NCBI GenBank assembly: GCA_009692005.1
Contig: SHZZ01000030.1
Span: forward strand, 1-43,367
Reading direction: 5' to 3'
Length of the DNA stretch: 43,367 nucleotides
Source of the DNA: Gemmataceae bacterium
GTDB taxonomy: Bacteria > Planctomycetota > Planctomycetia > Gemmatales > Gemmataceae
The position numbers were made by a program, and so were the translations under genes. Below are positions 3,145-32,496 of the stretch, piece after piece; the first letter of the stretch is position 1, and each line of letters begins with the position of its first letter. Below the pieces are notes generated by a model. That model was not told the DNA's origin, made no database searches, and worked only from the letters and a program-made list of their open reading frames with translations.

Positions 3145-4425
3145 TTAAGCCAGCACATCCTCCAAGGCCTTGCAATCCTCGTGGGCAATGGGCAGCGGCT
3201 GACCTTGATTGTCGTATTCCGTCTCCTTGGGATTGATCCCAAGAGCCCGGAACCAAGTGTGGAACAAATGGCCGATATCATGGGGGTCATTGGCCACTTC
3301 CGTGCCCAGTGCGTTGGTCTTCCCGGACACGATTCCCTTTTTCAAACCGCTGCCCGCCATGGCCAGGGACCAGGCTTCCGGCCAATGATCGCGGCCAAGG
3401 TGGCCATTGATTCTCGGAGTGCGCCCGAATTCGGCCATGACAATGACCAGGACATTATCGAGCATGCCCCGCTCGCTTAGGTCCTCGATCATGGCGGAAA
3501 AGGCCTTGTCGAACTTGGGAACCAGGCTGAGGTGGCCGTTGAAATTGTCGCCGTGCGTGTCCCAACCGTAGGAAGTCACTTTGACGAATCGAACCCCGGC
3601 TTCCAGCATCCGCCGACTCAGGAGCATATGCCTGCCGAAATCGAAAGTTCCATACCGCTCCACATCCCGTTTGGGCAAGGTGGCGGGGTCGAAGAGGTCG
3701 ATGCGTTTTTGCAACTGCGCGGCCATGTCAAAAACAGCGGAGGAAGCCTCGCTGTTTTCCTTGAAGCGGTTTTTCCGGTAGCGCTCTTCCAGCTTGGCCA
3801 GCAGTTCGCCGCGCAGCAAATCCTCATCCGGCGCCAGAGACTTGGGCCGCAGGAGGTTTTCCGGCGGTTTGCCATCGCCAAAGGCGATAGCGCCGTATTT
3901 CGGCCCGAGAAACCCGGCATCCTTGGCGATAAAGCCGCTGCTCATCGGCTTGACCCAAACATACGGGGGCATTTTGCTGGAACAAGGGCCAAGCAGCTTG
4001 GCCACCGCGGAGCCGAAAAAGGGATAGGTAACGCCCCGGTTCTTCGGGTCGCCCCGTTGAATGCGGTCGACCCCGGCCGAGTGAGAATTATCCTGGGTGC
4101 TCAGGCTGCGGACGATGACCAGCTTGTCCATGAGCTTGGCCGACCCCTGCAGCAGTTCGGAAACATGGATGCCTGGAACCTTGGTCGGAATGGAGCGAAA
4201 GGGCCCGCCGAAAGTGGTGTTTGGTTTGGGGTCCCAGCTTTCCAACTGGCTCATGCCGCCATCGAGCCAAACGAACAAAACCTGCTTTTCTTTTTCTTTC
4301 AGTTTTTCCGCCATGGCGGGATGGGTCAAGGCGCCCATGGCCCCAGCGCCCAGCGCCCCAGCATGGCCCAGCCATTGTCTGCGGGAAAGTGCATGCTCAT
4401 GGGGAATACACAAGGAAGGATTCAA
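3145..4425 (-). CDS. DUF1501 family protein, Tat-exported
   Basis: A 426-residue DUF1501 protein (alkaline-phosphatase/sulfatase-like fold). The N-terminus has a twin-arginine motif (SRRQWLG, R15-R16) and an Ala/Gly-rich hydrophobic stretch ending near PAMAEK, so export as a folded protein is likely. Family landmarks follow: VLFVWLDGGMSQLESWDPKP near the N-terminus, DNSHSAG, the VTSYGWDTHGDN segment, and VIVMAEFGRTPRINGHLGRDH. The start is a TTG at 4425: no ATG occurs before the twin arginines, and AGGGAG lies six to seven bases upstream. The DUF1549 gene ends 17 bases before. The Asp/His clusters suggest a metal site, but no substrate is established for the family. Confidence 0.9.
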   Translation of the reverse strand: MNPSLCIPHEHALSRRQWLGHAGALGAGAMGALTHPAMAEKLKEKEKQVLFVWLDGGMSQLESWDPKPNTTFGGPFRSIPTKVPGIHVSELLQGSAKLMDKLVIVRSLSTQDNSHSAGVDRIQRGDPKNRGVTYPFFGSAVAKLLGPCSSKMPPYVWVKPMSSGFIAKDAGFLGPKYGAIAFGDGKPPENLLRPKSLAPDEDLLRGELLAKLEERYRKNRFKENSEASSAVFDMAAQLQKRIDLFDPATLPKRDVERYGTFDFGRHMLLSRRMLEAGVRFVKVTSYGWDTHGDNFNGHLSLVPKFDKAFSAMIEDLSERGMLDNVLVIVMAEFGRTPRINGHLGRDHWPEAWSLAMAGSGLKKGIVSGKTNALGTEVANDPHDIGHLFHTWFRALGINPKETEYDNQGQPLPIAHEDCKALEDVLA

Positions 4426-4442: not shown

Positions 4443-6053
4443 TCAATGATTCAGACAAAATTCGGAGGAAGCCAGCAGGGCCCAAGCCAGGTGGGTCCAG
4501 CCGTTGCCACGGGTATTCTTGGCCTTTTCCAAAAAAGCTTTGACCTCGGCCGCTTCTTCTTTGCTGGGAAGCCGGGTCCACAAGGCCAGGTATAGCGTTT
4601 CAATTCCCGCTTCGGGACTGCTGTTTTTCATGACCAGGTCGATCAGATTTCCTGGCTCGGGGTTTAAAAACGCCAGGGTCGATTCATCGTTCATGAGAAA
4701 GAGCGCTGCTTGAAGGGAAAAGGAAATTTCGTCTTCGGGCTCGCGGGGAGGGTTGCCAAAGGCTTTCAAAAACTTGGCCTTGGGCGCCTCGGGAAGTTCC
4801 GGTTCCTCGCCCGGTTTTCCGGGCAATTTCTCCCAGGCGCCGGTGGCTACCAGGATCGAGGCCAGAAGTTGCTCGGGGCTCACCCGCTTTTCCAATCCAG
4901 CGAGAAATGAGGACTGCGGGACCGCGGCCAGTCCTTCCGGCCGTTGACTGGAGCGCTGGTAAGTTTGCGTGCGCGCCAATTGCCCCAGGAGCCACTTGAC
5001 ATCAAAGTTATGGCTGGCAAATTCCCGCGCCAGCAAGTCGAGCAACTCAGGATGCGAGGGAGGGTTTTCAGAATGATGCAGATCCAGGGGATGGACCAGG
5101 CCGCGCCCCAGCATCATGAACCAAAGGCGGTTCACCATGTTGCGCGAGAAGTCAATGTTTTCCCGGACAGGCAATTGCTCAGACAACTTTTCCAAGGGGC
5201 TGAACTTGGGAATGCCCGGCGTGCGTTTCTTGGAATCCGGTGGGATCGCGAATTCCTCACCCTTTTTGAATTCCGGAATGACGATCTCTTTCTGCCCTGG
5301 CAGTTTCGGACCGGTTTCCTTGGCCACTTTCTTGAACACCGACATGAACTCCACTTTTTTGCTGGTGAGCTTCTCTCCCACCGCCAGCGTCTTGGCATCC
5401 TGCAGGTAAGTATTCTGCATGAAAGCCAGGAGCCCCTTGAAATCGGCTTGCTTATAATCCTGAATGAACAAATGATCGTGGCACTCGGCGCAACGCAAGT
5501 CCTTACCGAGGAACAACCGGCCGACATCGCGGGTCAGGCCGGAGTAGTCGACCGGGTTCTGACCGTAGTTTTCCAGCCGCTTGGAGTAAAAGAACGAGGC
5601 CCCCTTCACTTCCTCCGCTTCGCCCTTTCCACGCAGAATCTCTCGAGCCATCCGGTCCCATGGCTTGTTGACCTTGAAGGAGTTTTCCAGGTAACTGCGC
5701 CATTCGGGATTTTCCCCCAGCCGCTCCATGAAATGCACATGGATAAAACCGGACATCCTCCGGGCGTACCCCGGGGCCTTCAGCAAAGCGTCGATCAGGC
5801 GGTTTCTTTTATCCGGGCCTTTGTCGGAAATAAAAGAGTGCGTTTCTTTCAGGGTGGGGATGCGGCCGCCAAGGTCGAGGTAGACCCGGCGGAGGAATTC
5901 ATAATCATCGCTTGCTTGGTTTGGCGTTTGGCCCTTGGCCGCGGCGAAAATCAAGGCATCGATTTTCTCAGGTAGCGAAACTTCCGCGCTTCTGGCCACG
6001 CCAAACAGGCAAGCGGCCAACAGCATGCCGGCTTGAGCAACACGGCTCATCAT
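4443..6053 (-). CDS. DUF1549/DUF1553 domain protein with haem-binding motif
   Basis: A 536-residue secreted protein. A signal peptide (MLLAACLFGVARSA) precedes a DUF1549 domain (about residues 27-235, with DDYEFLRRVYLDLGGRIPT) and a DUF1553 domain (about 300-520, with NMVNRLWFMMLGRGLVHPLD and SHPELLDLLAREF). A single CAECH motif at residues 188-192 inside DUF1549 fits covalent c-type haem binding. The PSCyt1 cytochrome domain often found in front of DUF1549 is absent, so this is the short form. The start is the ATG at 6053, with CGGAG eight bases upstream; the frame extends to 6113 but that extension has no site. It heads the DUF1549-DUF1501-WD40 set. Electron transfer coupled to the partner is an inference. 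Confidence 0.9.
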   Translation of the reverse strand: MMSRVAQAGMLLAACLFGVARSAEVSLPEKIDALIFAAAKGQTPNQASDDYEFLRRVYLDLGGRIPTLKETHSFISDKGPDKRNRLIDALLKAPGYARRMSGFIHVHFMERLGENPEWRSYLENSFKVNKPWDRMAREILRGKGEAEEVKGASFFYSKRLENYGQNPVDYSGLTRDVGRLFLGKDLRCAECHDHLFIQDYKQADFKGLLAFMQNTYLQDAKTLAVGEKLTSKKVEFMSVFKKVAKETGPKLPGQKEIVIPEFKKGEEFAIPPDSKKRTPGIPKFSPLEKLSEQLPVRENIDFSRNMVNRLWFMMLGRGLVHPLDLHHSENPPSHPELLDLLAREFASHNFDVKWLLGQLARTQTYQRSSQRPEGLAAVPQSSFLAGLEKRVSPEQLLASILVATGAWEKLPGKPGEEPELPEAPKAKFLKAFGNPPREPEDEISFSLQAALFLMNDESTLAFLNPEPGNLIDLVMKNSSPEAGIETLYLALWTRLPSKEEAAEVKAFLEKAKNTRGNGWTHLAWALLASSEFCLNH

Positions 6054-6158
6054 CAGGAATACTCCGAAAAATTGAGACTGCACCGGGGCAATCCATACAA
6101 GGCAGGCAACCAACTGCCATAATCTTACTTCTTTTCCGTCTAAAAGAAAAACACTTTT

Positions 6159-18534: not shown

Positions 18535-21500
18535 ATGGCAACCCTACCCAACTACACCAACTGCCCTTCTTGCGGGAGAACTATTCCCCTGGTCCAACCC
18601 AGCCAGGAATTGTTTCAAGCCTGCATCTGCGGGGAATGGATGCATTATGAGCCCCCGGGAAATTCCCCCGCTGGCAAAGAACCGACCAAAGTGGTGGACA
18701 ATATCCAACCCATCCGGCCAGAACCACGCACCACTCGAATCGATCCCCCCCAAGGCGCAGCCAAGGGAGTGACCAGGCCTTTTCCGCAAAAAGAAACTGG
18801 CGCCTATGTGGCGCCAAGGAAAACGGGGTTTCACGATCAGGCACCCCCGGTCCAGCCCTCGACCAAAATCCATCCGGAACAGCCCGTTCCTAACCCCGTG
18901 GCCAGTTCTCCACGGCAGACCAACTTTCAGGACCAAGCCCCCCCTGTGCAGCCGCCGACGCACCTCGAACGAGAGGAACCGGCCACTTCGCCTGAGGGCA
19001 ACCTGGTTTTTCACCCGGTGACCGACCCCTCCTTGGATTTGAGCCCTGCCAGGCCGAGTCGAAAAGGCCTGTTTATTTCAATCCTGCTTTTTGTCGTCAT
19101 GGCGTTGTTTTTGCTGGCCGGATGGCTGTACCTGGATTTGACCAAAGCGAACGAGGAAAAAACCTTAAGGGGATTAGCCGAGGGTGAATTTAAAAGCCGC
19201 AACTACCTCCTGGCCAAGGAAAAATTCACCAGTCTTCAGCAACAATTCCCCCAAAGCCAATGGGAGAAGGAATACCGCTATTGGGAGCAGTTGTCGCGGA
19301 TCAAGCAGGGGGCGGAGAGCCCAGGCGGCGGTCTGCCTAAAGCCGCCAAGGAGTTGTCCTCCCTTTCCCTGGTGGACAAATCGCTGGGGACGAACTGCCT
19401 GAAGGAAGCCGGGATCTTCGCGGTGGAATTGCTGGACAAGGGGCCCAAGGAGGAAAGTTATCTAAAGGAGGTGGAAGCCACGGTCAAGAAGTTGGCGGCC
19501 TTGCTTGGCGAGGAAAACGGCCAGGTAAAAAGCGCCCGGGGAAAACTGGGTCAATTGCGGCTGCAACTGGCCGCTGAAAAAAAACAACTTGAAGAAAAAA
19601 ACCTCTTTTTGAAAACCCTGCGAGAATTCGACCGGCTGGAACCGGCGCGGGTCTACTCGGCCAGAAAAGATTGGGTAGACCGGGCCAAGGGCTCCCATCC
19701 CGATTTGGTCAACTTGCCAGAAACACAGCAGTTGCTGAACCTGGCCATCCGGGCCCATCTTCGGTCGATCAACTATGAATCCGGAGCAGGAAACTTGGGA
19801 GAGAAAATTTCCAGGCAAGGCCTGGGCGGCGTTTCCTCCTTCATCCAGATTCCCGAAAAAAGGCAACCCGACTGGCTGCCTGATTCCAGTTTTCCCCTGG
19901 CCGCCAATATCCGCAGCACCCTGTTCGGCTTTCACCCGGCCAGCGGCAAAGTTTTGTGGGTGAAACGGCTGGGGAAGGAAGTGACTTTTCCTCCGGTGCC
20001 ACATCCTCCACTGCCCGACAACCCGGCCCTGATTCTCTCCTTGTGCGAGAATGGCGCCGCCTTGTGCGCCCTCGATTCCTATGGTCAACCGGCCTGGCAG
20101 GCAAGCCTGGGGGGAACTTGCCTGGCGGGCTTCCTGGTGTGGAACCAGGTGGCGTTGATTCCCTGCGTGGAGGGCCACCTTTTAGAAGTGGAACTGGCCC
20201 AGGGAAAAATTCTTGGGCGCTGGCAACTTGGACAGAACCTTTTGCAGCAAGGCGTTCTCGATGAAAAAGAAGGGATTCTTTACCAACCCGCCGACCCCGG
20301 CACACTTCTCCTCCTCGATCTCAAAGAAAAAAAATGCTTCAACCTGATCTACACCGGCCATGCCCTTGGAAACTTGGCTTCCCCGCCGTTGCTGGCTGAA
20401 CTCAACCCCGGGGCGAGGAATTCCAACTCGCACCTCTTTCTCATCGGCCGCGACTTGGAGCAGAACACCACTGCCACTCTTTTCCCCATTCCCCGCCCTG
20501 GCCCGCTGGTGGACACACTATCCCAGGCAAGCTGGAAATTCCCCGGCGCGGTTTCCGGCCCCTTGCTGACTTCCCGCAACCGCATGGTTTTCCTCAACTC
20601 GCAAGGCATGCTGAACTTGCTCGCCTGGAAAACCGCGCCCAAATGGGAAGAGTCCCTCGTGCCCATCCTTCAGAGTAAAGACCCCCTGCCCCTGAGCGAG
20701 TTAATCCGTGAACCGTTCGCCTCGGTTTCCCCGGGCGCCATGGTGGCGATCGGGTACCAGGATCTTTGGGTCGCCTATCGCGGGCACTTGCGCCAATTGC
20801 AAATGCTGATGGATTCCGATGGATTGCGTTTGGCGCCGGGGCAGCCCAACCCGCTGGAAATCGGGGCTCCTCTGAATGCGGGATTTCCTTTCACTGGCCC
20901 CAGGCTTCCGCAAGGCGGCTTGCTGCTACCGGGCCAACTTTCCGACAGATCCTGCCGCGTTGCTGCCTTCGACCTGGGGAAAAATCGTGGACTATGGCAT
21001 CACCGTTTGAATGGCGTCTTCCGCTCCGCCGCTGTGAAAATCCCCTCCAGCCCCGGAGACTATCTCGCCACCGATGAAGCCGGCGCGGTTTACCACCTGG
21101 CCCAGGAGAAAGACCTGGCCTCGGCGAAATCTCCCTGGGTTTCCGGCGGGAAAATAGCCGCCCCTCCGATCGGCTTTCCTCTACAGTCGCCCCCTTTGCT
21201 CTTTCCCTTGAATGGCAATGCGGTCTTGCAGTTTATGCACCTGGAAAATACGGGCGAGGTGATTCTGCGGCGGTTGCGCTGGAAGGACTCCGCCGTAGAG
21301 GTGGAAGCCGAAGCGTCGGCAGGGCTGGATTATCATTTGGCGGCGCCACCGGTCCTGATTGGCGAGGATCTGTTACTGGCCAAGAACCAGGGGATTTTTG
21401 TCCGGGTTGGTTTACATGACGGGAAAGCGCAAATCCGGCCCGGGCCCCCCTGGAAAAATCCTGCCGATGCCTCGCAGGGGATGGCTGCGCCAGCTATTCT

Positions 21501-22107
21501 CGACCAGGAAACTTTCGCCTTTTGCAACCCCGCGGGTGAAGTGGAACTTTACACTTGGCCGCAATCCAGGCAGGAACTCTTTCGGAAAATTAACCTGACA
21601 GGAAAAGGAATTCCCCTGGCCTCCCGGGTCGATGCCGTGAATACCCCCCTGGGCTCGCGCCTACTTTTCTGGAAGGCCACGGGCGAACTCGGCGGGTTCA
21701 GTAAGAACAGCGAGGGCCAATGGGTTCAATCCTTCCAGCATACATTTGAGGCGCCCGAGGGAGGCCTTACTCACTGGGTATTAAAAAACGGCGCCAGTCA
21801 GGATCGGGTTGCCATCCTGTCCAAGGGAAGGGAACTTTCTTGGCTCGACCCAGCAACGGGGAAAATATTGTGGAAGCATAAGCTGGAAGAAGAGCTGGCG
21901 TTTCCCCCCGCGGCAGCGGGCAACCAAGTCTGGGCAGTTTTTTACAACAAAAGGCCGCGAGGTTGGGAAGAAGGGACGGGAAAAGCATTACCTGCTCGTG
22001 AAGGCTTCCCCCCCAATGTCTTTCCTTCCGCCGCGCCTTGGACCCTGGATAACAACCGAGTGGCCTTTCCTTTAGAGGACGGCTCGGTGTTCCATCCCCT
22101 CCCCTAG
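18535..22107 (+). CDS. Large membrane-anchored protein: zinc-ribbon-like N-terminus, one span, beta-propeller-like region
   Basis: A 1190-residue protein without a family name I recognise. Residues 10-32 hold a CPSC...CIC pair (C10, C13, C30, C32), a zinc-ribbon-like knuckle. A Pro/Gln-rich linker follows with a near-duplicate, FHDQAPPVQPST at 99 and FQDQAPPVQPPT at 131. One transmembrane segment is at about 179-201 (ISILLFVVMALFLLAGWLYL). Then comes a helical TPR-like stretch (about 205-400) and a long propeller-like region with PQQ/quinoprotein-type strands (LFGFHPASGKVLWVKRLG; LSWLDPATGKILWKHKLE). Topology would put the zinc knuckle inside and the propeller outside. It follows the aldolase gene by 60 bases. 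Start ATG 18535 is chosen because the zinc motif follows at once. Confidence 0.72.
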   Translation: MATLPNYTNCPSCGRTIPLVQPSQELFQACICGEWMHYEPPGNSPAGKEPTKVVDNIQPIRPEPRTTRIDPPQGAAKGVTRPFPQKETGAYVAPRKTGFHDQAPPVQPSTKIHPEQPVPNPVASSPRQTNFQDQAPPVQPPTHLEREEPATSPEGNLVFHPVTDPSLDLSPARPSRKGLFISILLFVVMALFLLAGWLYLDLTKANEEKTLRGLAEGEFKSRNYLLAKEKFTSLQQQFPQSQWEKEYRYWEQLSRIKQGAESPGGGLPKAAKELSSLSLVDKSLGTNCLKEAGIFAVELLDKGPKEESYLKEVEATVKKLAALLGEENGQVKSARGKLGQLRLQLAAEKKQLEEKNLFLKTLREFDRLEPARVYSARKDWVDRAKGSHPDLVNLPETQQLLNLAIRAHLRSINYESGAGNLGEKISRQGLGGVSSFIQIPEKRQPDWLPDSSFPLAANIRSTLFGFHPASGKVLWVKRLGKEVTFPPVPHPPLPDNPALILSLCENGAALCALDSYGQPAWQASLGGTCLAGFLVWNQVALIPCVEGHLLEVELAQGKILGRWQLGQNLLQQGVLDEKEGILYQPADPGTLLLLDLKEKKCFNLIYTGHALGNLASPPLLAELNPGARNSNSHLFLIGRDLEQNTTATLFPIPRPGPLVDTLSQASWKFPGAVSGPLLTSRNRMVFLNSQGMLNLLAWKTAPKWEESLVPILQSKDPLPLSELIREPFASVSPGAMVAIGYQDLWVAYRGHLRQLQMLMDSDGLRLAPGQPNPLEIGAPLNAGFPFTGPRLPQGGLLLPGQLSDRSCRVAAFDLGKNRGLWHHRLNGVFRSAAVKIPSSPGDYLATDEAGAVYHLAQEKDLASAKSPWVSGGKIAAPPIGFPLQSPPLLFPLNGNAVLQFMHLENTGEVILRRLRWKDSAVEVEAEASAGLDYHLAAPPVLIGEDLLLAKNQGIFVRVGLHDGKAQIRPGPPWKNPADASQGMAAPAILDQETFAFCNPAGEVELYTWPQSRQELFRKINLTGKGIPLASRVDAVNTPLGSRLLFWKATGELGGFSKNSEGQWVQSFQHTFEAPEGGLTHWVLKNGASQDRVAILSKGRELSWLDPATGKILWKHKLEEELAFPPAAAGNQVWAVFYNKRPRGWEEGTGKALPAREGFPPNVFPSAAPWTLDNNRVAFPLEDGSVFHPLP

Positions 22108-22187: not shown

Positions 22188-24029
22188 TCAATCGCTACCC
22201 GGGCCGAGGTCGAGGGAACGGATTCCCAGCCGGGTCATGAAGCGGAATTTCTGCCTGGCAGACAATTCCTTTGTGTAGCGGTCCTTGACAGCATCGAGCC
22301 AGCGGATGGGCCGGCTGCCATAATCCACGCACACCCTGGCCAGGACAGGCCCCGGGGTTTCCAGGATGCTCTTGATTCCGCTCTGCAAGTCTCCTGTGGC
22401 GCCAATCTCCTGGTAAGCCACGCCGAGCCCCTTGGACAGCGCTTCATAATCCAGCCGAGCTAGCATGGTCGCTGTCGTGCGGCCATAGGCTTGCGACTGC
22501 AACTTTTGCATATAGTGGTAGGCCTGGTCATCGAGGATAAAGAACTTCACCGGCAAGGCCTCCCTGGCGGCGGTGGAAATTTCCATGGCGCTCATGAGGA
22601 AACAGCCATCGCCCGTGATGGTGACCACCTGGCGCGTAGGAAACGCTTTCTGCCCGCCGAGGGCCGCGCCGATCGACCAACCCATCGACTGGTTGTCGGT
22701 CGGGTTGAAGTAAGTGCGCGGCTGGCGGGTGGTCATGACTTCAGCGGCCCAGTGCTCGCTGAGGGAAACATCGACATAGGTCAAAGCATCCGGGCGCAGC
22801 GCTTTGCGCAATGCCAGCAAGAAGGTCATGGGGTCGGCGGCAGATGTCTTGCAAACGCGGCTGTTCCAGCGGGATTCATCACCTTTCCATTGGGCAATGC
22901 ACTGGGCCGGTTGGGTGCATTTCTCCCGAGCAATTTTATCCTTCTGTTCCAGCACCCTAGAAAGGAACAGCCCGGCATCGCCATGCACTGCCACGGTGGC
23001 GGGAATCACCTTTCCCAGGTTGGCCTCGCAGGAATCAACCTGGATATGGCATTTCACTCGGGGAATGGCATAGAACGCCGTCGAGACCTCGCTGTAGCGC
23101 GCCCCGATCGTTAGCAGCAGATCGACATTTTTGAAAGCCTTCTCGGCAGTCTGCGTCCCTTGCGGGCCGTAACCCCAGCCCACCGCCAGAGGATGGCATT
23201 CATCGATGGCCCCTTTGCCCGATACGCTGGTGGCCACCGGAGCGTTCAAAACCTCCGCCAAGGAGGTAAGGTCCGAGGAAAAATTCATGCAGCCCAGGCC
23301 GGCGTAGATTCCAACACGCAGGCCGGTTTGCGACAACAACTCCAGGGCGCGTTTGAAGGCGGGTTCATGCAAGGGGGGTTTCACCGGCGTCAAGGGGTGG
23401 TCCTGAAACCGGTGGGTCTCAATGAACAGGTTGTAAGGAACCAGCAGGGCCACTGGGCCGGGTTCGCCCTGGACTGCTTTTTGAAACGCTTGCCGGACCA
23501 GACGGGGAATTTCTCCAACGGTTCCCACCGACAGCACTTCCTTGCACACCTGTTTCAACAGGCCTTCCATGTTGAGATCGTGAACCTGGAACGGGCGGTA
23601 CTTTTCGCCGCGCGCCACATCCCCCACCACACAGACCAACGGGATGCTGTCCAAAAGGGCTTCGCCAATGCCAGTAAGGGAATTGGTCAAGCCTGGGCCT
23701 GGCACCACGCTGAGGACTCCGGGTTTGCCCGTGGCGCGGGCGAAGCCATCGGCCATGGCAGCGGCGGAGTTTTCATGCGTCACCAGTAAATAAGGAAGCC
23801 CGCGGGACTTCATGGCGTCCCACAGTTCATTCTCCTGCGCGCCAGGAATGCCAAAGACGCAGCCGCAACCTTCGGAAAGGAGAGTCTCCACCAGTGCGCG
23901 TGCGCCAGACATTAACCCAACGACCGAGCCCCCGGGCCGGACCCTGGCCTCGCCCTGCCCCGGCAACAATGCGGGGAAAGAAACCGCACCCACTCCTTTC
24001 AACCAATCCCTTCTGGAAAACCGGCTCAT
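22188..24029 (-). CDS. Tat-exported thiamine-diphosphate enzyme, acetolactate-synthase-like
   Basis: A 613-residue protein with the three-domain fold of the acetolactate synthase/benzoylformate decarboxylase family. It starts with a twin-arginine signal (FSRRDWLKGVGAVSFPALLPG), unexpected for this normally cytoplasmic family. The catalytic glutamate is E86 (VTHENSAAAMADG). The metal motif GDG is at 473-475, but the expected asparagine pair is D500-D501 (FFILDDQAYHYM). The central domain carries GIYAGLGCMN and LLLTIGARYSEVS. An ATG at 24029 with GAGGG four bases upstream is the start. It diverges from the metalloprotease gene. Substrate unknown; the changed metal ligands may alter cofactor use. 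Family call is secure, location is inferred from the signal. Confidence 0.85.
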   Translation of the reverse strand: MSRFSRRDWLKGVGAVSFPALLPGQGEARVRPGGSVVGLMSGARALVETLLSEGCGCVFGIPGAQENELWDAMKSRGLPYLLVTHENSAAAMADGFARATGKPGVLSVVPGPGLTNSLTGIGEALLDSIPLVCVVGDVARGEKYRPFQVHDLNMEGLLKQVCKEVLSVGTVGEIPRLVRQAFQKAVQGEPGPVALLVPYNLFIETHRFQDHPLTPVKPPLHEPAFKRALELLSQTGLRVGIYAGLGCMNFSSDLTSLAEVLNAPVATSVSGKGAIDECHPLAVGWGYGPQGTQTAEKAFKNVDLLLTIGARYSEVSTAFYAIPRVKCHIQVDSCEANLGKVIPATVAVHGDAGLFLSRVLEQKDKIAREKCTQPAQCIAQWKGDESRWNSRVCKTSAADPMTFLLALRKALRPDALTYVDVSLSEHWAAEVMTTRQPRTYFNPTDNQSMGWSIGAALGGQKAFPTRQVVTITGDGCFLMSAMEISTAAREALPVKFFILDDQAYHYMQKLQSQAYGRTTATMLARLDYEALSKGLGVAYQEIGATGDLQSGIKSILETPGPVLARVCVDYGSRPIRWLDAVKDRYTKELSARQKFRFMTRLGIRSLDLGPGSD

Positions 24030-24183
24030 TCATCCCTCGCTTAATAGAGGATGTAAAAACAGAATCCCGTAAATAAGGTCGTCAAAATGGGAGGAAACCT
24101 TGCGGGGGAAGTGAGATGGAAGGATATTCCGGTTGTAGCGGTTGTTGCTGTTGCGAAACCCAGGGCTGTTGGGGGCTTTCTCC

Positions 24184-28028: not shown

Positions 28029-28718
28029 TCAGGGAGAATCCCAGGGAGGAGGATAAAAGGACGCCAGCCGGTCTGGGTGAACCCCAGCCAGGGCCAGGGC
28101 CGTCAGGGTCCAATTGCGCAATGTCTGCCTGACGATGCCGTGCTTTTGCCAGCGGCGAGGGGAGACGAAAATATCCTCGCGAGCCAGGCGCAGTTTTCCC
28201 TTGGCAGCCAGGCTGCGGCTGAAAAACAAATCTTCCATGAATAGTAAATTCGGGAAGCCCCCCAGGCGATGAAAATCACTCCTTCTTAAAAACAGCCCCT
28301 GGTCGCCATAGACCAATCCGGCCCATTCCACCCGGGCGGCAGCAGCGCGTTCGATCAATCGGTAGGAGAACCCCGGCGCGCGGATTTTCATGTGGAAACA
28401 GCCTGCGATCACCTCTTTATCGTTCAAGACTTTCTTGGCCCGAGTCAGGGCGTTTTTCCCCAGTCGGCAATCAGCGTGCAGAAAAAGCAGGAGGTCGCCT
28501 TTGGCTTGCCTTGCGGCCAGGTTCATTTGCGCCGACCGGCCGCGCGGGGCCAGAAGGAAAGTGTCGGCCAAGGGTTCGGCCAGCGAGCGGGTGCGGTCGA
28601 TGGAACCGCCGTCAGCCACGAGAATTTCCAACGGGTTAAGTTCCCGCGCCTGGGTCAGGGCATCGACGATACCTCGTTCCTCATTCAGTGTTGGAATAAT
28701 CAGAGAGATGTTTTCCAT
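28029..28718 (-). CDS. Glycosyltransferase, TIGR04283 (GT2-like)
   Basis: A 229-residue GT-A glycosyltransferase. The N-terminus ISLIIPTLNEERGIVDAL is the classic family-2 opening, followed by EILVADGGSIDRT and the acidic site LLFLHADCRL. The later parts GGFPNLLFMEDLFFSRSL and SPRRWQKHGIVRQTLRNW match the short TIGR04283 subfamily, which in some bacteria is linked to arsenosugar synthesis; nothing here shows that. The start is the ATG at 28718; the open frame up to 28982 overlaps the divergent cysteine-cluster gene and is not used. No ribosome site is seen before the ATG. The divergent gap is only 43 bases. Confidence 0.85.
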   Translation of the reverse strand: MENISLIIPTLNEERGIVDALTQARELNPLEILVADGGSIDRTRSLAEPLADTFLLAPRGRSAQMNLAARQAKGDLLLFLHADCRLGKNALTRAKKVLNDKEVIAGCFHMKIRAPGFSYRLIERAAAARVEWAGLVYGDQGLFLRRSDFHRLGGFPNLLFMEDLFFSRSLAAKGKLRLAREDIFVSPRRWQKHGIVRQTLRNWTLTALALAGVHPDRLASFYPPPWDSP

Positions 28719-28761
28719 CGGGAAATTGTAGCCTGTAGACCGGTTCGCTACACTGTTCCAC

Positions 28762-29178
28762 ATGGGAAAAGAAGAACCGTGGTATGAGGAAGGCTTGCGC
28801 TTCGGCTGCACGCGCTGTGGGCATTGCTGCACGGGGGAACCGGGGCATGTCTGGGTTTCGGAAGACGAGATGCAAGCCATTGCCGACTTTACCGGGGAGC
28901 CGGTCAGCGAGTTCCGTTTTTTGCGGGTAAGGCAGTCGGACGGAAAAAACACGCTAAGGGAAAAGGCCAATGGCGACTGCATTTATTACGAAAAGGGGCA
29001 AGGGTGTGTGATCTACCCTGTCAGACCGGTGCAGTGCCAAACCTGGCCGTTCTGGAAAAGTCGGGCCTCAACCGCAGAAAGATGGGAAGAAACGATGAGA
29101 ATGTGCCCTGGCGCCGGAAAAGGCGACCTGATTTCACCCGAAGAAATCACTTTACGCATGAAACGCTTCCCGATTTAA
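28762..29178 (+). CDS. YkgJ-family cysteine cluster protein (first copy)
   Basis: A 138-residue cytoplasmic protein with eight cysteines, C16, C19, C22, C23, C73, C82, C92 and C115. The first four form FGCTRCGHCC, the typical CxxCxxCC opening of the YkgJ/Fli-B-like zinc or iron-cluster family; QGCVIYPVRPVQCQTWPFW is the usual second half. It ends 67 bases before the DUF1592 gene. No ribosome site is seen in front of the ATG at 28762. The family is thought to bind zinc or an iron-sulfur cluster; its function is largely unknown. The second copy lies downstream of the DUF1552 gene. Confidence 0.88.
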   Translation: MGKEEPWYEEGLRFGCTRCGHCCTGEPGHVWVSEDEMQAIADFTGEPVSEFRFLRVRQSDGKNTLREKANGDCIYYEKGQGCVIYPVRPVQCQTWPFWKSRASTAERWEETMRMCPGAGKGDLISPEEITLRMKRFPI

Positions 29179-29245: not shown

Positions 29246-31147
29246 ATGCCGTTGGCCCCTGTAAAGAAAATTGAATTATTGCGCCCCTTGCTGCTGGCGG
29301 CTTTGCTGGCCTTTACCAGCCAAGCCTTTGCCGGGGACGAACCGCCCGCCAACTTCAAGAACGATGTCCTGCCCGTGTTTAAGAAAAACTGCATCGGCTG
29401 CCATAACAACGACAAGAAACGGGGTGGCGTCACTCTGGAAGGGTTTAACTCCCTCGAGGATGTCAAAAAGAACATCAAGTTGTGGGAGCGGGTGGCGGAT
29501 AAACTGCGTACGGGAGAAATGCCTCCGCCAGAAAAGCCGCGGCCAACTACCGCCCAGTTGGAAGTTGTCAACCGCTGGCTCGACGCCCAGGTTTTTGAAT
29601 TCTCCTGCAAAGGGGAAAAGAACCCCGGACGGGTCACGCTGCGGCGTTTGAACCGGCTGGAATATAACAACACCGTTCGCGATCTGCTGGGGGTCACCTT
29701 TCTCCCCGCCGAGGAATTCCCCGCCGACGATGTCGGCTACGGCTTCGACCACATCGGCGATGTCCTCACACTGCCGCCCATTCTCCTGGAGAAATACCTC
29801 GACGCCGCCGAAGACATCGTCTCGGCCCTGTTCAAGAACCGCTTCAACCTGACGCGCTATTTAAAAGTTCCCGCGCCGGACAAAGTCACGATCAAAGACT
29901 ACCCGGAAATTCTGGGAACCTTGGCGACCAAAGCTTATCGCCGGCCGGCCACGCCCGCGGAAGTGAAAAAACTTTCCGCCATGGCAGAGTCCGTCGTCAA
30001 GGGTGGTGAACCGGTGGTAGAAGGGCTGAAAGCAGGCATCCAGGCCGTGCTGGTTTCACCCCATTTCCTTTTCCATGTGGAGATTGATCCCGACACTTCC
30101 TCCACCAAGCCGCACCCTATCAATCAGTTTGAACTGGCCAGCAGGCTCTCTTACTTTCTTTGGAGTTCCTTGCCGGATGAAACTCTGTTCAACCTGGCCA
30201 AGGAAAACAAACTGCGCCAAACGGGAGTGATTGAAGCAGAGGTTGCCCGCCTGCTCAAGGATGCCAGGGCCAAGTCGTTCACCCGCAATTTCACCGAGCA
30301 ATGGCTGCAGTTGCGCAATTTGAAAACAGTCCAGCCCGACCGCGCCCGCTTTCCTTCCTTCAACGACCAATTGCGCGACGACATGGCCACCGAGTCGGTG
30401 ATGTATTTTAGTCACATCACCAAGGAAAACCGCTCGATCCTGGAGTTTGTTGACAGCAACTACACATTCGCCAACAATCGGCTGGCCCGGCACTATGGCA
30501 TTCCCAATGTTAGCAGCTCCGATTTCATCAAGGTGGAATTCAAAGACAACAAGCGCGGCGGGGTTATCACCCAAGCCGGCGTGCTGACCATCACATCCAA
30601 CCCGACTCGCACTTCCCCGGTCAAACGGGGCAAGTGGATCCTGGAAAATATCCTGGGCACGCCCCCGCCGCCACCACCACCCGGGGTCGATGAACTCAAA
30701 GAAGATGAAAAAGCGCTGACCGGCACGCTGCGCCAGCGCATGGAGCAGCACCGCGCCAATCCCAATTGCGCCACCTGCCATCAACGCATGGACGCCATGG
30801 GCTTTGGACTGGAGAATTTCAACCCCGTGGGAGCCTGGCGGGAAATGGATGGACAACACCCGATTGATGCCGCCGGGGAACTGGCCGGCAGCGGCAAATT
30901 CGCCTCGCCAAGGGAACTGCGACAGCTTCTAGTCGGAAAATCTCAACTCTTCGCTCGCTGTTTCACCGAAAAAATGTTAATTTATGCTACCGGCAGGGGC
31001 ATGGAACGAGCCGATCAGTGTATAATTGATGCCATTGTGGAGAACATCCGCAAGGACAACTTCAAAATGCAGGCTTTGCTGGTGGAAGTGGTCAAGAGCG
31101 ATACTTTTCAAATGCGCAAGGCAAACCGCGGAGGCAAGGGACCATGA
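29246..31147 (+). CDS. Planctomycete haem-motif protein, DUF1587/DUF1592/DUF1588/DUF1585
   Basis: A 633-residue secreted protein. The signal peptide (LLRPLLLAALLAFTSQAFA) is followed by a PSCyt1-like cytochrome domain with CIGCH at 49-53, then DUF1587 (about 129-190, RVTLRRLNRLEYNNTVRDLLG), DUF1595 (about 222-282), DUF1592 (about 293-420, QFELASRLSYFLWSSLPDE), DUF1588 (about 438-535, with CATCH at 508-512) and DUF1585 (about 545-620). Two CxxCH motifs suggest two covalent haems. A proline run sits at 473-479. The last four bases overlap the DUF1552 start (ATGA), so the two are translationally coupled. A role in extracellular oxidation is an inference; no substrate is established. Confidence 0.92.
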   Translation: MPLAPVKKIELLRPLLLAALLAFTSQAFAGDEPPANFKNDVLPVFKKNCIGCHNNDKKRGGVTLEGFNSLEDVKKNIKLWERVADKLRTGEMPPPEKPRPTTAQLEVVNRWLDAQVFEFSCKGEKNPGRVTLRRLNRLEYNNTVRDLLGVTFLPAEEFPADDVGYGFDHIGDVLTLPPILLEKYLDAAEDIVSALFKNRFNLTRYLKVPAPDKVTIKDYPEILGTLATKAYRRPATPAEVKKLSAMAESVVKGGEPVVEGLKAGIQAVLVSPHFLFHVEIDPDTSSTKPHPINQFELASRLSYFLWSSLPDETLFNLAKENKLRQTGVIEAEVARLLKDARAKSFTRNFTEQWLQLRNLKTVQPDRARFPSFNDQLRDDMATESVMYFSHITKENRSILEFVDSNYTFANNRLARHYGIPNVSSSDFIKVEFKDNKRGGVITQAGVLTITSNPTRTSPVKRGKWILENILGTPPPPPPPGVDELKEDEKALTGTLRQRMEQHRANPNCATCHQRMDAMGFGLENFNPVGAWREMDGQHPIDAAGELAGSGKFASPRELRQLLVGKSQLFARCFTEKMLIYATGRGMERADQCIIDAIVENIRKDNFKMQALLVEVVKSDTFQMRKANRGGKGP

Positions 31148-32496
31148 GCAAGCAATTATCTCGTAGGACACTTTTGCGCGGGCTGGGAGTTTCGCTGGCC
31201 CTTCCCTGGCTGGATGCCATGTCCGGCACGACGATCATGGGCGCCCCGGCCCATACCCCGGCGCCACGAAGGCTGGCCTATTTCTATGTGCCTAACGGCA
31301 TTCATATGCAGGACTTCACCCCCAGTGAAACTGGCGCCAATTACAAGATGCCCTACCTGCTGGAATCGACCCTGGCGCCATTCAAAAAGAACCTGCTGGT
31401 TCTTTCCGGCCTCACTTGCGATAAGGCGCGGGCCAATGGCGACGGCCCAGGCGACCACGCCCGGGCGCTCTCTTCATTCCTGACCGGCAAGCAGGCGAGG
31501 AAGACCCATGGCGCCGATCTGCGCATTGGCGTTTCCGCCGATCAGGTGGTCGCCCAAAAGGTTGGCGGCGCCACTCGCTTTTCCTCATTAGAACTCGGCA
31601 TCGACAAGGGCATGAACGCCGGCAATTGCGACTCCGGCTACTCTTGCGCTTATAGCAACAACCTTTCCTGGCGCAGCGAATCGACACCGATGGCCAAGGA
31701 GAATGATCCCCGGCAGGTGTTCGAGAGGTTGTTCGCCTCGCCCGGCGAGACCAGCGCCGCCGGCATTCGCCGCCAAAAGATCCGCAAATCGATCCTCGAC
31801 ACGGTCAACAGCGAGGCCAAGGGCCTGCGCGAACAGCTCGGCGCCACCGACCGCAGGAAGCTGGATGAATATCTCAACGCCGTCAGGGAAATTGAAATCC
31901 GCCTCAACCGGGTGGAGAACCCTTTATTGGAAAAAGCCCGCTTCTCACCGCCAGAATCGGCGCGGCCCTCCGGCATTCCCCAGGATTTTTCCGCCCACAT
32001 GAAGCTCATGTGCGACATGCTGGCGCTGGCTTTCCAGGCCGACCTCTCACGCGTGGCTACTTTTGTACTCGCCAACGAAGGCAGCAACCGCAGCTTCAAA
32101 AACATTGGCGTGTCCGAAGGGCACCACGAGCTTTCTCATCATGGCAACGACAAAGATAAGCATGAAAAGATCAAGAAGATCAACCAGTTCTATTTGCAGC
32201 ACTTCGCCTATTTCCTGGAAAAATTGAGCGGGATCAAAGAAGGCAACCAGTCCCTGCTCCACCAGTCGATGGTGGTCTACGGCAGCGGCATTGGCGATGG
32301 CAACCGGCACAACCACGACGAGCTGCCCATCCTGGTCGCGGGAAATGGCGGCGGGGCAATCCTCAGCGGCAGGCATCTCCGCTATACCAAGGAAACGCCG
32401 CTCAACAACTTGCATCTTTCCCTTATCGAGCGCATGGGAGCCAACCTCCCCTCCTTTGGGGACAGCACCGGGCGGCTGGAAAATCTTTCCTCCTAA
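31144..32496 (+). CDS. DUF1552 family protein, Tat-exported
   Basis: A 450-residue protein with a twin-arginine signal (MSKQLSRRTLLRGLGVSLAL, R7-R8). The family body starts PRRLAYFYVPNGIHMQDFTP and includes FSSLELGIDKG, SYSCAYSNNLSWRS, a central region ending near SAHMKLMCDML, and SEGHHELSHHGND, with HNHDELPILVAGNGGG near the C-terminus. The His-rich segments suggest a metal site, as in the related DUF1501 fold. It overlaps the haem-motif gene by 4 bases, so the pair is made together and may form an exported complex. A short cysteine-cluster gene follows 19 bases later. The biochemical activity of DUF1552 proteins is not known. Confidence 0.93.
   Translation: MSKQLSRRTLLRGLGVSLALPWLDAMSGTTIMGAPAHTPAPRRLAYFYVPNGIHMQDFTPSETGANYKMPYLLESTLAPFKKNLLVLSGLTCDKARANGDGPGDHARALSSFLTGKQARKTHGADLRIGVSADQVVAQKVGGATRFSSLELGIDKGMNAGNCDSGYSCAYSNNLSWRSESTPMAKENDPRQVFERLFASPGETSAAGIRRQKIRKSILDTVNSEAKGLREQLGATDRRKLDEYLNAVREIEIRLNRVENPLLEKARFSPPESARPSGIPQDFSAHMKLMCDMLALAFQADLSRVATFVLANEGSNRSFKNIGVSEGHHELSHHGNDKDKHEKIKKINQFYLQHFAYFLEKLSGIKEGNQSLLHQSMVVYGSGIGDGNRHNHDELPILVAGNGGGAILSGRHLRYTKETPLNNLHLSLIERMGANLPSFGDSTGRLENLSS

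Follow-up and report, generated by a model that had tools for sequence, protein, structure and literature searches.

The stretch of DNA analysed here (the window, 43,367 nucleotides) carries a gene for a thiamine-diphosphate (ThDP) enzyme. The favoured reading, to which we give a probability of roughly two in three, is that of a clade-specific, Tat-exported and probably active member of the ThDP-dependent decarboxylase superfamily. ThDP enzymes of the acetolactate-synthase type are normally kept inside cells. The ThDP cofactor is made inside the cell, and an exported enzyme must either cross as a holo-dimer or find its cofactor outside. Such an enzyme would make both the export of oligomers by Tat and the retention of cofactor directly testable, and the gene stands for an enzyme that is uncharacterised although most members of a large bacterial clade retain it. 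The portions of the open-licence PMC literature covered yielded no report of an exported ThDP enzyme and none on this orthologue family.

The gene and its leader

The first-pass annotation had placed its feature at 22188-24029. This interval coincides exactly with a minus-strand open reading frame in the ORF listing of the window; the plus strand across the interval is broken by stops. The ATG abuts an in-frame TGA, so that no earlier protein start is possible, and a ribosome-binding-site-like GAGGGA lies just 5' of it. The encoded protein begins with MSRFSRRDWLKGVGAVSFPALLPG.

22188..24029, minus strand: gene of the putative Tat-leader ThDP enzyme, 613 amino acids plus stop (ORF; Pfam TPP_enzyme_N/_M/_C)
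24033..24038, minus strand: ribosome-binding-site-like GAGGGA 5' of the ATG (upstream sequence)
23946..24029, minus strand: Tat-type leader, residues 1-28, end approximate (sequence; 83/83 readable orthologues; model pLDDT ~40-50)
24009..24014, minus strand: twin arginines R6-R7, invariant in 83/83 orthologues, with all six Arg codons in use

The orthologue set consists of 110 loci, reduced to 86 distinct proteins by removal of duplicates. Three of these (L087, L104 and L107) lack the N-terminus, leaving 83 readable leaders, and one (L103) ends before the metal motif, leaving 85 proteins readable at positions 500/501. Of 40 paralogues from related genomes, 34 were used; L123, L130, L133, L140, L147 and L150 were left out because their longest frame was not the gene. 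These 34, together with five E. coli ThDP enzymes, make up the 39 controls.

The twin-arginine motif and hydrophobic stretch first noticed before the domain of the window protein recur in every one of the 83 readable orthologues, where the RR of each leader was taken as the one before the most hydrophobic stretch, a choice that favours a positive result. The window leader reads S-RR-DWLK and has a best 11-residue Kyte-Doolittle mean of 1.75; across the orthologues this value averages 1.70, with a minimum of 0.94 (n=83). S, T or N precedes RR in 78/83, and the third residue past it is Leu, Phe or Met in 75/83. In the orthologue alignment, column identity is 1.00 at RR, 0.12-0.49 over the rest of the leader and 0.60 over the mature part. 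This conservation of RR at the amino-acid level indicates that the leader is translated, since an untranslated RR would not be kept. The default TatP pattern, RR.[FGAVML][LITMVF], is a prediction rule and not a biological requirement, and is matched by 70/83 orthologues. RRDWL of the window does not match it because Trp stands second after RR. The pattern is given as covering 97% of the set on which it was trained (PMC1182353).

Among the 34 paralogues none combines RR with a hydrophobic stretch in the 60 residues before the domain, as judged by eye. RR alone is found there in seven, one of which (L135) fits the TatP pattern. TatC is encoded in the genome (191.8 bits). The predicted leader is thus a clade trait of the orthologues, and export of the enzyme by Tat is what we infer from it.

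Domains and fold

All three Pfam matches exceed their curated cut-offs.

23598..23912, minus strand: TPP_enzyme_N (PF02776), residues 40-144 (109.2 bits, E 1.4e-31)
22956..23354, minus strand: TPP_enzyme_M (PF00205), residues 226-358 (94.1 bits, E 7.7e-27)
22341..22772, minus strand: TPP_enzyme_C (PF02775), residues 420-563 (106.5 bits)
23772..23774, minus strand: catalytic glutamate E86 (ScPDC E51), Glu in 83/83 readable orthologues
22605..22613, minus strand: GDG at residues 473-475, with the first metal ligand D474 (sequence motif)

The glutamate that had been reported as kept in the window protein is therefore also kept throughout the readable orthologues, and its equivalent in ScPDC, E51, has a described catalytic role (PMC3534367). 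An AlphaFold model from a 30-sequence alignment has a mean pLDDT of 83.5 and a pTM of 0.85, with the leader at ~40-50. Its nearest Foldseek matches are acetohydroxyacid synthases (AHAS; 6lpi, E 9.8e-46), and a structure alignment with the AHAS 6deo gives Z 40.4 and an rmsd of 3.0 over 537 aligned residues. The mean column identity of ~0.60 over the mature part implies strong constraint. With its three domains, catalytic Glu and GDG kept, the protein is, as judged from its sequence, a member of the ThDP-dependent decarboxylase superfamily.

The metal motif and the surrounding active site

22527..22532, minus strand: D500-D501, with D501 at the metal-ligand position, D474 + 27 (alignment; ScPDC numbering)
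23619..23621, minus strand: D137, Asp in 84/84 orthologues and in 1/4 outside relatives; Gln in 26/34 paralogues

ScPDC binds Mg2+ via N471, 27 residues past D444 of its GDGX (PMC3534367). A GDG followed 27 residues on by a side-chain ligand, either Asn or Asp, is present here as D474 and D501. The window protein lacks the motif in its strict Asn form, but this form does not define the superfamily, because 13/39 family controls carry Asp at that position. Positions 500/501 read DD in 83/85 readable orthologues, the exceptions being one DN and one VD. Controls carry NN (25), ND (12), HN (1) or VD (1) and never DD, and the four nearest relatives outside the orthologue clade (the sister proteins) carry ND, ND, RD and HD. 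Asp at 501 thus occurs in 13/39 controls and 4/4 sister proteins, and is ordinary; D500, found in 84/85 orthologues and 0/39 controls, is a novelty of the clade. The first-pass annotation had read the motif as having its asparagines replaced by Asp-Asp. The pair is indeed there, but only its first member is clade-specific, the second being unremarkable in relatives. Likewise, the suspicion that the change might be common in ordinary cytoplasmic members holds for a lone ligand Asp (13/39 controls) and not for DD (0/39). Bearing Asp in place of Asn, D501 should still bind a divalent metal.

Thirty positions are at least 97% fixed in the orthologues and common to at most one of the four sister proteins. 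They include D137, N446, W451, D500, Y504, Y506, M507, L510 and T518-T521, several of which, by homology, appear to border the active site. D500 is accordingly placed by the alignments in a remodelled active site common to the clade. These clade-only changes in the active site suggest a changed substrate.

Distribution and history

Matches at E <= 1e-110 were found in 125/347 genomes of the same class, one per genome. All fall in three families, to judge by record titles apparently Gemmataceae (f1, the family of the window; 80 genomes), Isosphaeraceae (f3; 42) and one more (f5; 3). Within the same set of 347 genomes, 14 of f1 have no match at this threshold. In a phylum-wide sample of 294 genomes, which apparently holds few or no members of these three families and whose listing leaves out 270 rows, the matches listed at E <= 1e-85 are those of the window genome and three outside relatives. 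A pattern scan of 84,980 species genomes yielded 102 relatives, and the best 80 of these were retained. The record titles of these 80 are planctomycete, bar a small number of bins with generic or evidently wrong names, and among the cultured organisms that carry them are Zavarzinella formosa, Limnoglobus roseus, Gemmata sp. IIL30, Singulisphaera sp. GP187, Aquisphaera insulae and Paludisphaera soli. Five records with an orthologue (L031, L062, L101, L106 and L079) are titled Candidatus Kuenenia or Bacteroidales; these titles look misnamed.

The four sister proteins found come from other parts of the phylum and show 33-39% identity; inspection of their N-termini revealed no Tat leader. A tree was built from 17 of the 86 orthologues, the four sister proteins, the 34 paralogues and the five E. 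coli enzymes. In this tree, which was made by a quick method with SH-aLRT supports and no bootstrap, was rooted for drawing only and samples distant relatives within the phylum, the 17 orthologues form one side of a branch with support 100 and the four sisters group at 94; the sisters join the orthologues at 100. The simplest history would be a leaderless ancestor that already had D501, followed by gain of the leader and D500 on the branch of the clade. Near the leaderless sister gene of one genome (G383) lies a gene for a beta-keto acid cleavage enzyme (L208:3030-4211, minus strand). Apart from this single enzyme, nothing is shared among the neighbours of the sister genes (ten ORFs).

Genomic context

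Across 81 loci including the window, and with antisense ORFs included, no conserved neighbour or partner gene was found. The largest cluster of neighbours occurs at 17/81 loci and is a multi-copy family whose distance and strand vary, while the DUF4953 neighbour in the window recurs at only 7/81. The statement that the substrate could not be predicted from context is borne out. Taken as a whole, the first-pass observation is confirmed, with E86, GDG 473-475, D500-D501 and the RR leader all present; its interpretation stands as regards the leader in homologues, the new D500 and the uninformative context, and gives way as regards D501, which is ordinary.

Elsewhere in the window, two further proteins with Tat leaders are each paired with a planctomycete cytochrome-type protein: a DUF1501 protein (3145-4425, minus strand) with a PSCyt2/PSD1 protein (4443-6113, minus strand), and an HXXSHH/DUF1552 protein (31144-32496, plus strand) with a PSD2-5/PSCyt1/PSCyt3 protein (29246-31147, plus strand). 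The gene at 28029-28982 (minus strand) matches the arsenosugar biosynthesis glycosyltransferase model TIGR04283 with 234.8 bits against a cut-off of 182. Convergent with the ThDP gene is 18535-22107 (plus strand), whose product of 1190 aa combines a CxxC-type segment at the N-terminus with a hydrophobic stretch and a PQQ/BamB-like propeller.

Alternative readings

A one-off error of annotation or start is rejected by the leaders of the orthologues, the in-frame stop before the ATG and the ribosome binding site. Another reading is that the enzyme is cytoplasmic, starting at the internal Met40, or that both starts are used and the location is dual. The domain begins exactly at residue 40, Met40 is present in 61/83 orthologues, and the high cysteine content fits the cytoplasm. 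The orthologues average 13.3 Cys in their last 575 residues, against 7.6 in the paralogues and 4-10 in the sister proteins; C247 is present in 86/86 and C476 in 84/85. Unless disulphides form, such richness would not be expected of a protein that is exported. Several cysteine pairs associate among the orthologues, but kinship explains them equally well. Conserved cysteines restricted to the clade correspond to window residues 57, 247, 347, 396 and 476. Against a start at Met40, this residue is absent from 22/83 orthologues, and an RBS-like tetramer precedes it in just 3/61, which is not above the background at in-gene places (179/2822), while the leader start has one in 59/82. Nor would RR be expected to be kept as amino acids if it were untranslated. 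The possibility that close homologues might start after the twin-arginine part is thus contradicted by both the leaders and the ribosome binding sites, and we regard a cytoplasmic enzyme as decidedly improbable.

If the leader is real, the protein could still be a non-catalytic envelope protein of ThDP fold, with a binding, sensing or structural role, in which DD spoils the metal site. The clustering of clade-only changes round the metal loop and active site, and the lack of metabolic neighbours, would suit this. However, the invariant E86, the kept GDG, the normality of Asp at the ligand position in controls and sisters and the constraint on the mature part all argue for catalysis, and loss of activity seems unlikely. 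An ordinary AHAS whose RR leader is due to chance or goes unused has in its favour that TIGR00118 is the best NCBIfam model and that the best PDB matches are AHAS. The score against that model is 306.7 bits, well short of the cut-off of 538.35, and the leader is conserved throughout the 83 orthologues. A separate enzyme of AHAS type (L132), encoded in the same genome, groups with E. coli IlvB/IlvI at SH-aLRT 99, while the ThDP enzyme of the window falls outside. We take Met, Arg and Trp to be the residues that set AHAS specificity; the corresponding positions here align as Ser270, Val315 and Leu510, and although the phmmer alignment is gapped near 315, there is no Arg there. An ordinary AHAS is rejected on score, tree position and missing specificity residues and can be given hardly any weight; the best reading is that the enzyme is not an acetohydroxyacid synthase.

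Proposed role

For the favoured reading, an exported and probably active enzyme, the conserved export tag makes the cell envelope its probable place of action. ThDP enzymes build their active site from two subunits, E86 presumably coming from one and D474 and D501 from the other. Export of a holo-dimer of ~130 kDa is for this reason the likeliest route. Each chain would fold around Mg-ThDP in the cytoplasm, pair into the dimer that ThDP enzymes require and pass through Tat as holo-enzyme, to decarboxylate or condense a small 2-oxo acid in the periplasm. PaoABC is a reported case of an enzyme with several subunits that passes through Tat (PMC4273604). Export may have come with a new substrate, as the clade-only changes in the active site suggest. 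A fuller and more tentative scenario, which we hold at somewhat below even odds, is that this planctomycete branch carries out periplasmic ThDP-dependent C-C chemistry with a single-copy, lineage-core enzyme, loaded with Mg-ThDP in the cytoplasm and exported via Tat as a holo-dimer bearing two signal peptides, its active site having been rebuilt for a new 2-oxo acid when the leader was gained.

Comparison with known systems

AHAS (TIGR00118, IlvB/IlvI) shares the three-domain ThDP fold, catalytic Glu and GDG, and supplies the best HMM and structure matches. It differs in having NN instead of DD, in its specificity residues, in lacking a Tat leader and in forming a separate clade. Glyoxylate carboligase (Gcl) shares the superfamily fold, and an LGWT segment resembles MGWS. 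However, Gcl has Val where the catalytic Glu would stand (PMC3534367), and is rejected as an identity for the window enzyme, which has Glu86. The leaderless sister group (G383, G505, G352 and G365; L160, L161, L162 and L165) also has the ligand Asp, but carries N, R or H at 500 and mostly lacks the block of D137, N446, Y506 and M507.

The closest parallel in export is found in a different fold. Glucose-fructose oxidoreductase is a Tat-exported cofactor enzyme of the Gfo/Idh/MocA type. The genome of the window has 39 Gfo/Idh/MocA matches; by a crude test, Tat-like leaders are present on 19 of the 36 scored, a count made without L168, L170 and L175 and with frame or start doubtful for L176 and a few others. 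Several cytoplasmic-type cofactor enzymes therefore appear to be exported in such bacteria, and the ThDP enzyme would add one more, with another cofactor. The surprise of a Tat leader on a ThDP enzyme is tempered because about half of the Gfo/Idh/MocA proteins have Tat-like leaders and because the ThDP enzyme is cysteine-rich. Like the window enzyme, the exported Gfo/Idh/MocA proteins are cytoplasmic-type cofactor enzymes with a Tat-type leader, but their fold is another and their cofactor is presumably NAD(P) rather than ThDP.
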